DNA from: an uncultured bacterium
GTDB lineage: Bacteria; Verrucomicrobiota; Kiritimatiellia; RFP12; UBA1067
Direction of reading: 5' to 3'
Length of the DNA stretch: 64,000 nt
NCBI GenBank assembly: GCA_902801025.1
Contig: CADCGZ010000012.1
Location: 1-64,000, forward strand
Shown: positions 47,885-54,349 of the stretch, in pieces
Numbering within the stretch: the stretch's first letter is position 1
Layout of the letters: each line of letters opens with the position of its first letter
Program-made: the position numbers and the translations under genes
Notes under the pieces: model-generated
Databases searched by the model: none
Seen by the model: only the letters and a program-made list of their open reading frames with translations
What the model was told of the DNA's origin: nothing

Positions 47885-48721
47885 TCACCCGTCCACCTCC
47901 CCAAACATCGTTATGCCAAACTCATTCATGAACTTCAACACCGCCTTCAACGAGGGCGTCTTGCCACCCAACGTCTCAGCAAGGTAATTGAAGTTAATTG
48001 AATCCGTACAAATACTTTTTTCACGAACAAAATCCTTGAACGACTTATCCAAATCGCTCTTGTCTTTAAGTGCTTCTCCGTAGACACTTACGCTATGTGC
48101 AGCATCTTTTACGCACTCATCCAAAAATTGAGTGTCACCTAGTTTATTTGCTAGCACCAATGTTTCCACTGTTCTGTAAAGCGGCAGAACAATATCGCGA
48201 TCTTTTGCATTTCCACTTTGAACTATATGAAGAAACTTCACCCATTCAAGTTTCATCGTAGAAGACGAGTGTTTCGCTTGCATCCGCTGAAATTGAGAAT
48301 CAGATTTGAGAAGCTCACCAAGCCGACGTTTCAGATTACGAACTTCTTTCATCATTTTCTTTTCTCTCCAAACTGACAGAAGCGGAACAACAACTCCTAA
48401 CAAGGCAACAAGTCCAGAGATTACCCAAAGTGAAATATTCAGCTGCAACATAAACCTATCATGTGCCGTCTTCAACTCCTCATACCGATCCTTATACTCT
48501 TCCTTCGCGTCATTCACGGCCGCCTTCAATTCTGCCCTTACCGCCCTATCAAACGCCGTATCCCCTACCGGCGCCATGGTAACCACATTCACAGAAGCTA
48601 CAGGTGGACACTTCTCCGCCGTCGCAACAACAGCATTCGTATCTGCCACCACCGCGAAATTCACAGCTGTTACTGCGAACACAATCAATATCATTCTACT
48701 TCTGCTCTTAAGAAATGACAT
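47885..48721 (-). CDS. hypothetical membrane-anchored coiled-coil protein
   Basis: A 278-residue protein, no recognised family. An N-terminal hydrophobic stretch (MILIVFAVTAVNFAVV) resembles a signal. A charged, helical region (residues ~65-90, AKEEYKDRYEELKTAHDRF) precedes a strong transmembrane helix (~95-115, LWVISGLVALLGVVVPLLSV), then a basic helical segment (REKKMMKEVRNLKRRLGELL) and a ~150-residue cytoplasmic part. The AAGGAGCG site before ATG 48721 is good. The gene is much more AT-rich than its neighbours and is the last of a run of three unknown AT-rich genes. Confidence 0.7.
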   Translation of the reverse strand: MSFLKSRSRMILIVFAVTAVNFAVVADTNAVVATAEKCPPVASVNVVTMAPVGDTAFDRAVRAELKAAVNDAKEEYKDRYEELKTAHDRFMLQLNISLWVISGLVALLGVVVPLLSVWREKKMMKEVRNLKRRLGELLKSDSQFQRMQAKHSSSTMKLEWVKFLHIVQSGNAKDRDIVLPLYRTVETLVLANKLGDTQFLDECVKDAAHSVSVYGEALKDKSDLDKSFKDFVREKSICTDSINFNYLAETLGGKTPSLKAVLKFMNEFGITMFGEVDG

Positions 48722-49506: not shown

Positions 49507-52083
49507 CTAATTTCCATAACTTATGATTGGGCGGATTTGGTATCCAGCGTATCTAGCAAAGGTCTTGGAAGTAATTGTCCAGTCGTATTCATAAAGTTGG
49601 TGCCCATCTGCATCTTCATGCCTATGAAACATCCCCCATGCGCCAGTAGAAGTCGCTATAGCAGAAGAAGTAGGAGTATCGGAACACCAACCAAAAAGCA
49701 ATTGCCCCCCGCCATTTCGCGTCCACCCAGATTTGAATGATGTCCCTGTACCAACACCTGCAAACGGAATGAAAATACTCTTCGATGCATAATCCCCCTT
49801 GCCAGTGATAAGCACTCCACTCACCCCGTTACGAACAGTACATTCGCAAGTTGTGTTAGCACGAAGTTCCGAAACATCACTACTAGTCGGCATTCTCCAC
49901 GGAGCGCCAAGGTATTTGGTCGCCGCATCATGGGCCGCAACTAGGCTACCATTGCCATCAACCCAACCAGAACTCTGCAATTGTGCAAGTGATTTGTTGT
50001 AATTGGGACAATTTGTGCTTGCGAACGAAAAGCCTGTCACGGAGCCATCAACCGCATTCCAACTATCTCCAACTCGTTTATATCCAACCGTGTCCCCCCA
50101 CCAGAAGAAGTATCCTGTTCCTTGCGGTGTTGTTGCACCAAGATTGTTCTTAGCCCAATACGGACCGCCTTCCCATAGCTGCACGCCTTGAGGATCCCAC
50201 ACCGCGTACAGGTTTTTCGTGCCAGAAGCCGCAAGGTTCTTCACGGTCTGTCCGTTTGTGTATTTCGCAGAGGTTGCATCGGCAGTGTCGGCCCATCCCT
50301 TGAAGGTAAAACCATTTCGCGTAAACGCATTTGCAGTGAGCGCCTTCGAGACGTCGTAGGTGAAACTCTCGACCGGCATCGTGCCGGAGCCGCCGTTGGC
50401 GTTGAACTTGACGGTGTAGGTGTTGGGCGTGTAGGTTGCCTCGTACGCCACGTCGCGCGACGGGATGGTGAGCGTTGTACTCGCTGATGTCGCGCTCGCA
50501 AGGAGACCCGTGTCGGCAGTTGTGCCAGTCCAGCTCGCGAAGGTGTAGCCCGTCTTGGCCGCCGCTGCGATCGTGACGGACTTACCCTGCACGAACGACC
50601 CGGATCCCGTGCCGCCCGTCACGTTCACCTGGAAGTTCTTCTCCGTCACCTTCGCGGTCACGGCGAAGGAGGAAAGCGTTACCTGCCCCAAGTCGGCGAA
50701 GGCGTCCCACACGAACCGCCGCGTGCCGGGCTGGACCTCCAGCGTGCGGTTGTTCTCACTGGGATTGCCGACGTAGAATGTCCGCGCATTGAGGTTCGTG
50801 TTGCCCTTCGTGTCCTTAACCTCGAACGAGACAGTGCTCAGTCCGCTCGCCGCAAAGGTGACGTCTATGTCGACGAGTCCGTTCCACGGATACCGCTGGC
50901 GCGCCGTGACCGAGGTGACCTCAAGGACGAGTTTCCACACCGCATAGAGATTCACCGTGCCGTCCGGCGTCGCCGTGAGGTTGCTGACGCTCTGCTTGTT
51001 GCTGTAGGTCGCCGTTGTCGCGCTCGCCGACGTTGCCCATCCCATGAACTTGTAGTTCACGCGCTGGAACGCGTTCGCCGTCAGCGCCTTGGCCACATCG
51101 TAGGTCATCGCGAGGTTCGCCATCGTGCCCGTTCCGCCGTTCTTGTTGAACTTGATGGTGTAGGCGTTCGCCTGCCACACCGCATAGAGATTGACCGTTC
51201 CGCCCGAGGTCGTCGTCAGGTTCTTGACGCTCTGCCCGTCGTCATACGCGGTGGTGGTAGCGGATGCACTCTTAGCCCAGCCGATGAATATGTAGCCCGT
51301 GCGCGTGAAGGTGTTGAGCGTAAGCGCCTTCGCCGTGCCGTACACAAAGCTCTCGTTCGCCATCGACCCCGTGCCGCCGTTCGCGTTGAACTTCACCGTG
51401 TAGGGCTGCCCGTCGTACGAAGTGCCGCCGCCAGATTCACCGCCGCCCGATCCGCCGCCCGAGGAGCTCGCGCGGTAGCCGGTGTTGTAGGAGCTCGTGA
51501 TGTTTCCGGACGACTTCACGGCAACAATCCAGTAGTAGTAGGTCGTGCCGGCCACTGCGGTCGTATCGGTATAGGAGGTTCCAGTGACCGTCGTGAGCTG
51601 GTTAGCGTACTCGAAGTTGGAAGTATTGCCGCGCACTACGCGATAGCTCGTCGCGCTAGTCTGCGCCGACCAAGTGATGATGACGCCGGCCGTCGACGTG
51701 CCGTCCGAGGCATTGATCGAAAACGACCCGCCGGACGATCCGCCGCCGCCGCTGCCGCTTGCCGCAGTGGCCATGCCGCTGATCGCATGAGCGCCAGAGC
51801 TGTCCCAAGCCTCGACCCAGTAGTAGCAGGTGTCGACTCCGGCCTGGCTGTCGGTATAGGATGTGCCTGTCGGGGTTCCCAGCGTTGATGCAGAACTAGA
51901 CGACGCGGTCCAGCTGCGCTTGACAACATAATAGGAAGCGCCGCTGACCGACGTCCACGCCAGGCTTACGGACGTCGATGAAGTCCGTGTACAGGACGTT
52001 ATGCTCGGAGCCGAAATGGCCAGGGCATTAAAGCCCACGAGCGCCAGACCCAACAGGATCAAACCGCGAATTTTGTTCATCAT
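49507..52083 (-). CDS. modular surface protein: Fn3-like domains, InlB repeats, C-terminal Fibrobacter-type paralogous domain
   Basis: An 858-residue exported protein (MMNKIRGLILLGLALVGFNALA). Order: Fn3-like domain (residues ~24-105), Gly/Ser linker (SGSGGGGSSGGS), second Fn3-like domain (~115-205), second Gly/Ser linker, two InlB-type repeats (YTVKFNANGGTGSMANESF.. and a second copy), a beta domain, a divergent InlB domain (~490-565), a third InlB repeat, then a C-terminal domain (GVQLWEGGPYWAKNNLGATT to IRPIISYGN) homologous to the N-terminal domain of the giant protein. The last domain is visibly more AT-rich than the rest of the gene, suggesting a domain swap. Likely secreted or surface-bound; ligand unknown. 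Confidence 0.85.
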   Translation of the reverse strand: MMNKIRGLILLGLALVGFNALAISAPSITSCTRTSSTSVSLAWTSVSGASYYVVKRSWTASSSSASTLGTPTGTSYTDSQAGVDTCYYWVEAWDSSGAHAISGMATAASGSGGGGSSGGSFSINASDGTSTAGVIITWSAQTSATSYRVVRGNTSNFEYANQLTTVTGTSYTDTTAVAGTTYYYWIVAVKSSGNITSSYNTGYRASSSGGGSGGGESGGGTSYDGQPYTVKFNANGGTGSMANESFVYGTAKALTLNTFTRTGYIFIGWAKSASATTTAYDDGQSVKNLTTTSGGTVNLYAVWQANAYTIKFNKNGGTGTMANLAMTYDVAKALTANAFQRVNYKFMGWATSASATTATYSNKQSVSNLTATPDGTVNLYAVWKLVLEVTSVTARQRYPWNGLVDIDVTFAASGLSTVSFEVKDTKGNTNLNARTFYVGNPSENNRTLEVQPGTRRFVWDAFADLGQVTLSSFAVTAKVTEKNFQVNVTGGTGSGSFVQGKSVTIAAAAKTGYTFASWTGTTADTGLLASATSASTTLTIPSRDVAYEATYTPNTYTVKFNANGGSGTMPVESFTYDVSKALTANAFTRNGFTFKGWADTADATSAKYTNGQTVKNLAASGTKNLYAVWDPQGVQLWEGGPYWAKNNLGATTPQGTGYFFWWGDTVGYKRVGDSWNAVDGSVTGFSFASTNCPNYNKSLAQLQSSGWVDGNGSLVAAHDAATKYLGAPWRMPTSSDVSELRANTTCECTVRNGVSGVLITGKGDYASKSIFIPFAGVGTGTSFKSGWTRNGGGQLLFGWCSDTPTSSAIATSTGAWGMFHRHEDADGHQLYEYDWTITSKTFARYAGYQIRPIISYGN

Positions 52084-52630
52084 CTCTTCATTCCCCCGCG
52101 CCTTTCCTTTACGAGGCCCGACACCCTCGGCGCAGAAAAGAAGAGTGGCGTGCCTTTAAATCCATGTCTTGTAGAGGCATCGCCAAACGCCCGTAGTTAA
52201 ACACGATTATAAGACACGCCACGTGATTGCACACGCGACGCATCTCACATACTCGGCTTAACTACTGAAAATTGGCGATTTTCTACAAAGCCAAATACGC
52301 AAGATTGCGTACGTCGGCGGATGTTGCCACCCGCCCTTGGCGGACTCCGCGTTTCGCGTGCCGCCGCTCCCGGGCCATCCTGCACCCGGGAGTATGGGAA
52401 AGATCAATGTCGTGCGGTTTCCCGCAAGACGGTGAAATTATACTACATCCGCCCTTCCGCCGTCAAATCGCAAAATTAAAAAATCAAAGCGCGGTTAAAT
52501 GAGATTATGGTGCGGACGAAATCACATATCCCCCGACGACCGAAGGGAGGAGCCGCGAAGCATATCCACCGACCGAAGGTCGCTGCCGAAGGCAGTCGCT
52601 AGAGTGGTGGCGCTATGCGGGGTGCGGATG
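52084..52630. other. noncoding upstream region with promoter-like site and stable hairpins
   Basis: No convincing gene. It contains TATAAT on the minus strand at 52206-52211 (candidate -10 for the surface-protein gene, poor -35), a stem GGCGTGCCT/AGGCATCGCC at ~52157-52195, and a perfect 8-bp stem CTCCCGGG/CCCGGGAG at ~52369-52394 within a GC-rich block. A 76-codon plus-strand ORF at 52272 spans these hairpins and has no ribosome-binding site or recognisable protein character. Confidence 0.45.
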
Positions 52631-52720
52631 TGTCGCGGCAAGGTTAAGCGAGCTGACGGAACGTCGGCGAGCGCAGATGCTGCGAAGAAAAACGCACCTT
52701 ATGGAAGGTGAGGCAAGGGA
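52631..52720. repeat. dispersed ~90-bp repeat, copy 2, with covarying hairpin
   Basis: Matches 14081-14173 over its whole length with scattered substitutions. The central hairpin at 52653-52667 is CTGACG-GAA-CGTCGG. Relative to copy 1, paired positions have changed together, so the stem is kept. It lies 200 nt before the long nested inverted repeat. Confidence 0.75.
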
Positions 52721-52924
52721 CGAGGGGGCGAGTGCCGAACTGAGCGACATGCAACGACGCGGTTCTTCGGATGCGCGGTGAGACACGTCGCAAGGCGAGG
52801 AGGTGTATTCACCGACGAAGCATTGCGGCGCGTATCGCCGCGAAGACGACGAGAGCGGCGGCGCAGGGAGCGTGAGAGAGGCCGAGACCCCGAGCACCGC
52901 GCCGAACTCCCGAGGGTGCCAAGC

Positions 52925-53106
52925 GCGGCCACGGTTCGGGTCGGTTAGCGGAACGGACCGAAGCAGGGGGAGGCGAGTTGCGCAGGACTCGACCCCGACG
53001 GCGTATATGTATACGCCGAGCGGGTCGAAGGACGCGCAAATCGCCCGCCCTGCACAGGGAGTACCGTTACCCGAACCGTGGCCGCACACCCGAACCGTGG
53101 CCGCAC
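52925..53106. ncRNA. long nested inverted repeat, candidate structured RNA
   Basis: A perfect 17-bp outer stem (GCGGCCACGGTTCGGGT at 52925-52941 with its complement at 53069-53085, and a tandem second copy of that 3' arm at 53088-53106). Inside it, in order: an asymmetric internal loop, GCAGGG/CCCTGC, GGCGAGTTGCGC/GCGCAAATCGCC (11 of 12), CGACCC/GGGTCG, and CGGCGTATA/TATACGCCG closed by a 2-nt turn. The result is one rod-like hairpin of ~180 nt. No known RNA family motif is recognised and the transcribed strand is unknown. Confidence 0.5.
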
Positions 53107-53176
53107 GTTGACAGGCAAACCAGCACAGCTAGCGAGCGCTAAACCGAAACACGCCCCGCCGCGGACGCGCCACCAC

Positions 53177-54349
53177 TTACAAACTCGCTATGCGCTTGGC
53201 GAGACGGGGGAGGCCGGGGTCGCGCGCACCAGCCGTCGCAAACGCGGCGTATTTGCCGCGGCGAGCCGCAATCCAGTCGAACGCCGCATCAAGATCTCCG
53301 ACGAGCTCGACGCGCGAGGGGTCAAGCTTAGCCGCAAGCGCGTCGGAGTTTATCGAGCGGTCGGTCGTGCCGCCCGCATCGTAGACGGGAAGCAAAAGCA
53401 GCTTGTCCTGCGGGCGAATCACCTCGGCAAACATGTCGGCGAGATCGTCCTTCATCTTGCGAAGTGGCGCGTAGCCGTGGGGACGCCAAACGACGCAAAG
53501 TCCGCCCGGATAACGCTCGGCAAGCGTCAGCCACATCGCGCGAAGCTTCTCGGGATTGTGCGCGTAGTCATCGTAGACACATTCGCCATACTTCTGCAAC
53601 CGGCGCTCGACGCCGCCAAAACTCTCCATCGCCTTCTCCGCCTCGGCGCGGTCACAGCCAAGCGCGACTGCCATGCGGACTGCGAGCGAGGCGTTCTGGC
53701 TGTTGAAGTCCTGCGGGCGGTAGGTTTCGCCGCGAGCGTCGACGACGGGACCTGGGCAGTCCTTCACGAAAGCGTCGAAGACTTCGTCCATCTCCTCCTT
53801 CGAGTAATGGTCGGCTGAAGCGTTCGTCACGATTGCGGCATAGGGGCTAAACGCGACGAGAGACTTGTCGCTTTCATCTACCTCTGCAACGGCATATTCT
53901 CCCTTCCCGAACCTGACAGCCCCCTGCCAGCCGGGGACGTTCGCGCCGTTGACGCACATCGGGTCGAGCCCACATGTCGAAAGCACGTGGCCGAGCATCG
54001 CGGTGACGGTTGACTTGCCGCAAGTGCCGACTACGGCGACGAGCTTGTAGCCGGAGAGCGCGCGGGCGAGGGCCTTAGCACGATGGGTCACAGGGATTCC
54101 AAATTCCTTGGCACGCGCAAGCCCGGAATTCGTGTCCTCAATCGCAGTAGAAACAATTACCTCGTCAGTGGACGCGTCGATTCCGCTGCCGTCGTCAGGG
54201 AAGCAGCGGATGCCAAGAGAGCCGAGAAATCTTATGTTCGGAGTGTCGAGATTGCGATCGGCGCCGGTCACTTCGTCGCCGAGACGGACAAGCGCCGTCG
54301 CGAGCGCACTCATGCCGACGCCGCCGATTCCGATAAGATGTCGCTTCAC
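53177..54349 (-). CDS. compact MurC-like Mur ligase
   Basis: A 390-residue protein with the MurC/Mpl layout: N-terminal HLIGIGGVGMSALA, P-loop GTCGKSTVTAMLGH, the ligase motif EVDESDKSLVAFSP with AIVTNASADHY, and the C-terminal YDDYAHNPEKLRAMW. MurC normally has ~460-490 residues; here much of the central domain after SADHY is missing (only ~35 residues before the NASLAV helix). The real start is GTG 54349, overlapping the upstream stop as GTGA; the ORF reading upstream is not protein-like. It could be MurC itself or a paralogue acting on another UDP-muramyl substrate. No other peptidoglycan genes are adjacent. Confidence 0.75.
   Translation of the reverse strand: MKRHLIGIGGVGMSALATALVRLGDEVTGADRNLDTPNIRFLGSLGIRCFPDDGSGIDASTDEVIVSTAIEDTNSGLARAKEFGIPVTHRAKALARALSGYKLVAVVGTCGKSTVTAMLGHVLSTCGLDPMCVNGANVPGWQGAVRFGKGEYAVAEVDESDKSLVAFSPYAAIVTNASADHYSKEEMDEVFDAFVKDCPGPVVDARGETYRPQDFNSQNASLAVRMAVALGCDRAEAEKAMESFGGVERRLQKYGECVYDDYAHNPEKLRAMWLTLAERYPGGLCVVWRPHGYAPLRKMKDDLADMFAEVIRPQDKLLLLPVYDAGGTTDRSINSDALAAKLDPSRVELVGDLDAAFDWIAARRGKYAAFATAGARDPGLPRLAKRIASL

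Follow-up and report, generated by a model that had tools for sequence, protein, structure and literature searches.

The locus raises the question of what kind of genetic object lies behind the rod-like nested inverted repeat that the earlier note had marked at positions 52925-53106 of the window (the whole stretch of 64,000 nucleotides that was analysed): a candidate new structured RNA, as proposed there, or, as also considered, a 6S-like RNA or a mobile palindrome. The rod itself was confirmed. Its closing stem (52925-52941 with 53069-53085) is a perfect 17-bp inverted repeat, and the inner nested stems follow as described, up to the GTATAT-GTATAC tip. Folding of 52900-53130 goes beyond chance, as had been expected: the predicted minimum free energy of the + strand is -127.8 kcal/mol, versus a shuffle mean of -92.2 (z -7.5), and that of the - strand is -134.8 (z -7.5 versus shuffles), neither value being matched by any shuffle. 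Since the rod is palindromic, folding energy by itself is silent on which strand matters. The 3' arm is repeated exactly in tandem over 19 bp (53069-53087 and 53088-53106), and 52925-52941 can pair with 53088-53104, giving the two alternative pairings suggested previously. The duplication is missing, and the arm therefore single, in both orthologues located 3' of the murC-like gene (L277 in genome G075 and L278 in G058); the alternative pairing is thus not family-wide, and was rejected.

The rod proved to be part of a larger unit. Used as a query against the window's own genome, 52500-53170 returned 47 matches, several of which, on other contigs, extend over hundreds of bases at 77-95% identity. 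In a k-mer profile over 58 copies, conservation climbs sharply ~360 nt upstream of a GGACT anchor (52985 in the window) and drops sharply ~115-130 nt downstream of it, and these edges place the unit in the window at about 52644-53128. The inverted repeat of the earlier note is real, and its coordinates correspond to only the 3' domain (the 3' third) of this unit. The parts of the unit, and the outer repeat around it, are as follows.

52644-53128, + strand: whole structured non-coding element, 5' TTAAGCGAGC ... GGCAAACCAGCACAG 3', from conservation edges, aligned ends and the covarying fold (47 copies)
52648-52674, + strand: 5' hairpin P1 (GCGAGCTGACGGAACGTCGGCGAGCGC), consensus pairs 32-58, 33-57, 34-56, 36-52, 37-51, 38-50 and 39-49
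52690-52920, + strand, limits approximate: branched central domain with a long-range closing stem, consensus columns about 78-306
52802-52813, + strand: small hairpin GGTG-TATT-CACC within the central domain, consensus pairs 187-200 to 191-196
52925-53085, + strand: 3' rod domain (the feature first noticed), with double substitutions in 34 of 56 well-kept pairs
52944-53071, + strand: core rod, which varies little in length (126-130 nt among relatives); basis of model R1
53069-53106, + strand: 3' arm duplicated exactly in tandem (19 bp), which among the orthologues examined is peculiar to the window copy
53107-53128, + strand: conserved 3' tail GTTGACAGGCAAACCAGCACAG, from aligned copies
52480-53177, no strand assigned: outer mosaic repeat enclosing this copy of the element, with ends that recur elsewhere around other interiors

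The element measures ~485 nt, with the private 19-bp duplication counted in. Aligned copies begin with (G)TTAAGCGAG... and end with ...CCGCACAYTGGAAGGCAAACCAGCACAG, and no terminal inverted repeat was apparent by eye in these aligned ends. Some copies are without the 5' part, and variable CA-rich tails were observed in some. Separate searches with the ends and with the rod distinguished two modules, an outer repeat and an inner rod-bearing unit. The ends of the former (~52480-52526 and ~53123-53177, the right end adjoining the stop codon of the murC-like gene) enclose different interiors at other sites in the genome, and the latter is also found outside the outer repeat. The outer repeat has a AAATGAGATTATGGTGCGGACGAAATC-like motif at its left end (52500-52526); near-exact matches of 22-45 nt to this motif occur in rod-free congeners, e.g., G012, and upstream of a copy from another genus (L175) there is a similar motif. 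Short outer-repeat copies and their flanks (L023, L024, L026 and L014) contain degenerate runs of AGAGTCGGTTAGGGTCAG-like units inside or beside the repeats. Elsewhere in the window, positions 49507-52083 encode a predicted secreted protein of 858 aa, the repeats of which, by eye, resemble those of the InlB type (Listeria-Bacteroides).

The substitutions among copies were analysed in terms of the predicted fold. For the rod, 23 diverse core rods were aligned with MAFFT, blind to structure, and the alignment was then submitted to RNAalifold. The consensus contains 41 pairs, 24 of which carry double substitutions. Pairing was retained in 96.7% of the cells, versus 79.9% after shuffling and 29-45% when the partners were slid by 1-3 columns; the covariation score was 0.448 (0.141 shuffled, at most 0.135 slid), and 157 cells were double-changed versus 47 in the control. 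The full-length alignment of 47 non-redundant copies yielded 135 pairs, 95 of them with double substitutions, and its consensus fold consists of the rod preceded by the 5' hairpin and the branched central domain. Of the 39 pairs located 5' of the rod that are retained in at least 85% of the copies, 20 show double substitutions, and the GGTG-TATT-CACC hairpin keeps its pairing while its sequence changes among copies. Compensating changes above the controls, as would be expected of a conserved structured RNA, were thus found in both the rod and the full-length alignments, although not all of them are independent events, since the copies recombine. Base pairs kept by compensating mutations mean that one strand is very probably used in folded form. 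That strand has a conserved three-part fold (5' hairpin, branched centre and long 3' rod with G/A internal loops), which the compensating changes maintain across copies, species and genera.

On the + strand, G-U exceeded A-C among the pairs kept in at least 85% of the copies, both in the rod (45 versus 11) and in the 5' domain (64 versus 23), the p-values of this bias being indicative only owing to the relatedness of the copies. One G-U pair is near-invariant (22 of 23 rods). The unpaired G and A residues of the internal loops are invariant, whereas many paired columns vary, which is the opposite of the outcome expected from arm-to-arm correction of a DNA palindrome.

The element is non-coding. 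Antisense frames of up to 158 codons are present in many copies, out of register with one another and without codon periodicity, and the codon positions vary equally; coding on either strand was therefore rejected. In Rfam 15, no gathering-score match to the element was found (with ROOL, GOLLD, OLE, HEARO, group I and II introns, RNase P and tmRNA among the families searched) in 52100-53300 of the window and in 11 related loci; the only matches obtained were spurious miRNA/snoRNA hits and a real tRNA elsewhere. For 6S RNA (RF00013), no match was detected up to E 10 in 52100-53300, nor up to E 0.5 in the 11 related loci, and the element is multicopy and ~485 nt long with further domains; the suggested 6S resemblance found no support. 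The conserved AGC/GUU end of the core resembles the triad of group II intron domain V; the 34-nt D5 hairpin with its bulge is absent, Rfam gave nothing, and the likeness was taken as coincidence. In another part of the window, 48295-48360 has a gathering-score match (E 0.39) to SNORD36, a eukaryotic snoRNA family, which is almost certainly spurious. Among papers that mention both Kiritimatiellae and noncoding RNA, none was related, judged by title. The proposal of a candidate new structured RNA thus stands at the level of structure, with heavy covariation, no Rfam match and no coding.

The distribution of the element was followed with two covariance models, R1 and R2, both built from the element family itself and thus with rough E-values. 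R1 matched 25 of 61 congeners, with 13 copies in the window genome and up to 19 elsewhere, and 31 of the 115 genomes of the family. R2, in which divergent members were included, gave matches in 33 of the class's 346 genomes, and these belong to four genera of a single family. Genomes that carry the element contain 1 to 19 copies, numbers that are lower bounds because contigs often break at copies; the genomes are all probably MAGs. G307, from another genus, has 10-12 matches, in which the core architecture is retained at low sequence identity, and in three other genera the rod length and loops are the same despite low sequence identity. A degenerate rod pattern, run against GTDB contigs, was found almost only in MAGs of ruminant or other gut Kiritimatiellae, 'Lentisphaerae' or Verrucomicrobia. 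Almost all named matches are MAGs of gut Kiritimatiellae. A copy was also observed on a 3.2-kb contig labelled Coriobacteriaceae (L234, CACYAX010000217.1), which is probably misbinned.

The occurrence of the element varies at orthologous positions. Downstream (3') of the murC-like gene, copies are present in G000, G058 and G075, and other sequence in G030, G077 and G002; upstream of dnaG, only G000 and G006 carry copies among the relatives examined. To the left of dnaG, nearly every close relative has a different gene context (L305-L312, L333-L334), indicating frequent rearrangement. Of the pairs of collected copies, 27 have one flank in common and only 2 have both, and many synteny breakpoints are occupied by copies. 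G075 and G058 match G000 over the left flank and the element, as far as the element's 3' end, and then diverge, while in other copy pairs identity falls at various points inside the element. Whole arm modules are swapped in pairs between copies, and at one locus a module swap separates L225 from L021. Judged from these sequence breaks, homologous recombination between dispersed copies, together with module swapping, would account for the pattern. No neighbouring gene is common to all copies, nor was an autonomous version found. The 12 candidate empty-site matches include several that represent one place repeated, and both of the aligned sites are mosaics of other modules, which renders a target-site duplication unreadable. 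The idea of a mobile palindrome thus holds insofar as the copies are multicopy, dispersed, mosaic and variably present at orthologous positions.

A single IMG/VR contig (L274, IMGVR_UViG_3300028832_000322) contains two inverted copies ~5 kb apart, with a tyrosine integrase and a probable tRNA antisense ORF adjacent. The integrase and probable tRNA are most likely host flank, and a phage element was rejected; this putative viral contig may represent a prophage edge in a Kiritimatiellae host.

The reading that we favour, with somewhat less than even confidence, is that 52644-53128 is a copy of a previously uncatalogued family of intergenic elements in gut Kiritimatiellae, which are structured, mosaic and non-autonomous, are selected for a single-strand fold and most likely act as RNA. 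The + strand would act as the RNA, produced by read-through or by an unrecognised promoter, and its fold would be recognised by a trans-acting partner, presumably a protein encoded elsewhere. The element would most likely be a non-autonomous mobile element that needs its folded RNA for its own spread, and homologous recombination between copies would then shuffle modules and rearrange the chromosome. Several results count against this reading: sense sigma70-like promoters are not enriched upstream of the copies and no T-run follows their 3' end, neither a common neighbouring gene nor an autonomous version came to light, no target-site duplication could be read, and Y1 (RAYT-like) transposases do not follow the element cleanly. 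The further idea of a bacterial counterpart of a SINE, i.e., a large folded RNA spreading by an RNA-dependent route with an enzyme encoded elsewhere, appears quite improbable; the sharp 3' end, the variable CA-rich tails and the 5'-less copies are suggestive in this respect.

Several other explanations were weighed against the favoured reading. Extremely improbable, and already largely refuted, is a lack of any structural selection, whereby template switching or gene conversion within the palindrome would mend arm mismatches. Quasi-palindromes are readily corrected where inverted repeats are long, and the swapping of arm modules, whole and in pairs, is in line with this. Such correction would, however, erase internal loops, yet the unpaired G and A of these loops rank with the most conserved residues, and nearly all copies have a core of 126-130 nt; covariation extends to the branched 5' domain, and correction gives no reason why one strand should prefer G-U to A-C. 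Very little probability is also given to a cis-regulatory role as a leader or terminator for the neighbouring genes (6S-like, riboswitch or attenuator). It draws on the TATAAT motifs that point away from the element within 200 nt of its 3' end, which were observed in 32 of 110 copies versus 3 in the opposite orientation. These promoters start downstream of the element, which therefore lies outside the leader, and promoters point away on the 5' side too (14 of 66 copies versus 2); the element is located upstream of its neighbours' promoters, and a riboswitch or leader was rejected on these grounds. Moreover, the copies are intergenic with mixed orientations of the neighbouring genes (counts that rest on a simple ORF heuristic), and RF00013 is not matched.

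More weight, although still in the range of the unlikely, can be given to a host-beneficial, trans-acting gene for a large structured RNA of the OLE, ROOL or GOLLD sort, which would happen to have turned multicopy, its copies being functional RNA genes and their dispersal secondary. The conservation of structure across four genera, the single match per genome in some distant relatives (G155, G219, G316 and G311) and the complex multi-domain fold all speak for such a gene; it is missing, however, from 36 of 61 congeners, several of them about 90% complete, the presence and context of its copies vary, and sense sigma70-like promoters are not enriched upstream (2 of 45 copies versus 18 of 225 shuffled). 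An element acting at the level of DNA, one strand of which would fold as ssDNA in replication, with selection on this DNA fold, and be mobilised by an enzyme specific for hairpins (Y1/RAYT as for REPINs, another HUH enzyme or a tyrosine recombinase), we consider distinctly unlikely. The rod is palindromic, intergenic, multicopy and without a promoter, and G-T wobble and tandem G-A mismatches are tolerated in DNA too. Y1_Tnp families were detected in 40 of 59 congeners, with four matches in the window genome; by our own tally, however, they do not track the element cleanly (20 of 24 element-positive versus 20 of 35 element-negative congeners). Against a DNA-level element, it greatly exceeds REPs and REPINs in size and branching, 17 of the 18 Y1 loci examined are without a rod (a rod fragment lies near the other), and G007, 82% complete, has 13 copies and no Y1 match. 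The complex branched fold and the wobble bias favour an RNA-level element over ssDNA.

A large, clearly covarying element outside Rfam is thereby gained from a poorly studied group of gut bacteria, and its combination of strong selection on a complex single-strand fold with dispersal, module swapping and synteny breakpoints is unusual. If transcribed, it would constitute a new class of large RNA, for which over 100 natural variants are at hand for probing and structural studies; should it act as DNA instead, its folded strand would be far more elaborate than that of any of the repeats compared here. Either way, a testable object takes the place of an unexplained palindrome.

In comparison with known systems, the element recalls 6S RNA in its rod with bubbles and its 3' domain of about 180 nt, but differs in the lack of an Rfam match, the position of the rod inside a larger unit and the multicopy state. 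Like REPs and REPINs with their RAYT (TnpA-REP) proteins, as partly outlined in PMC3116915, it is palindromic, intergenic and non-autonomous, and Y1 transposases occur in many of these genomes; unlike them, it has no consistent Y1 neighbour. REPs, according to the portions of PMC3733652 and PMC2817692 drawn upon, are 20-40 bp long, carry GTAG or CGTC tags and often exceed 100 copies. In the consensus of the present element, neither tag stood out by eye, and the rod is ~160 nt within the 485-nt unit. With ROOL (named from rumen sequence), GOLLD and OLE, as described in part in PMC12286853, it shares a length of hundreds of nt and a multi-domain, strongly covarying, non-coding nature. In contrast to these RNAs, it has no Rfam match, occurs in up to 19 dispersed chromosomal copies per genome, has no promoter that was found and, bar the one IMG/VR contig, no evident link to phages or tRNA islands; its fold and sequence are unrelated to theirs as judged by Rfam only. 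The BOX, NEMIS/Correia and bcr1 structured intergenic repeats, in the partial account taken from PMC2267715, are likewise multicopy, intergenic, foldable, modular and non-autonomous, and the present copies are indeed multicopy, dispersed, intergenic, non-coding and foldable. Unlike BOX, NEMIS and bcr1, the element is ~485 nt long and folds into a branched structure, most helices of which show pairwise compensating changes across genera. It is thus a structured intergenic element, filed in none of the named families, that is unusually large and unusually well supported by covariation.
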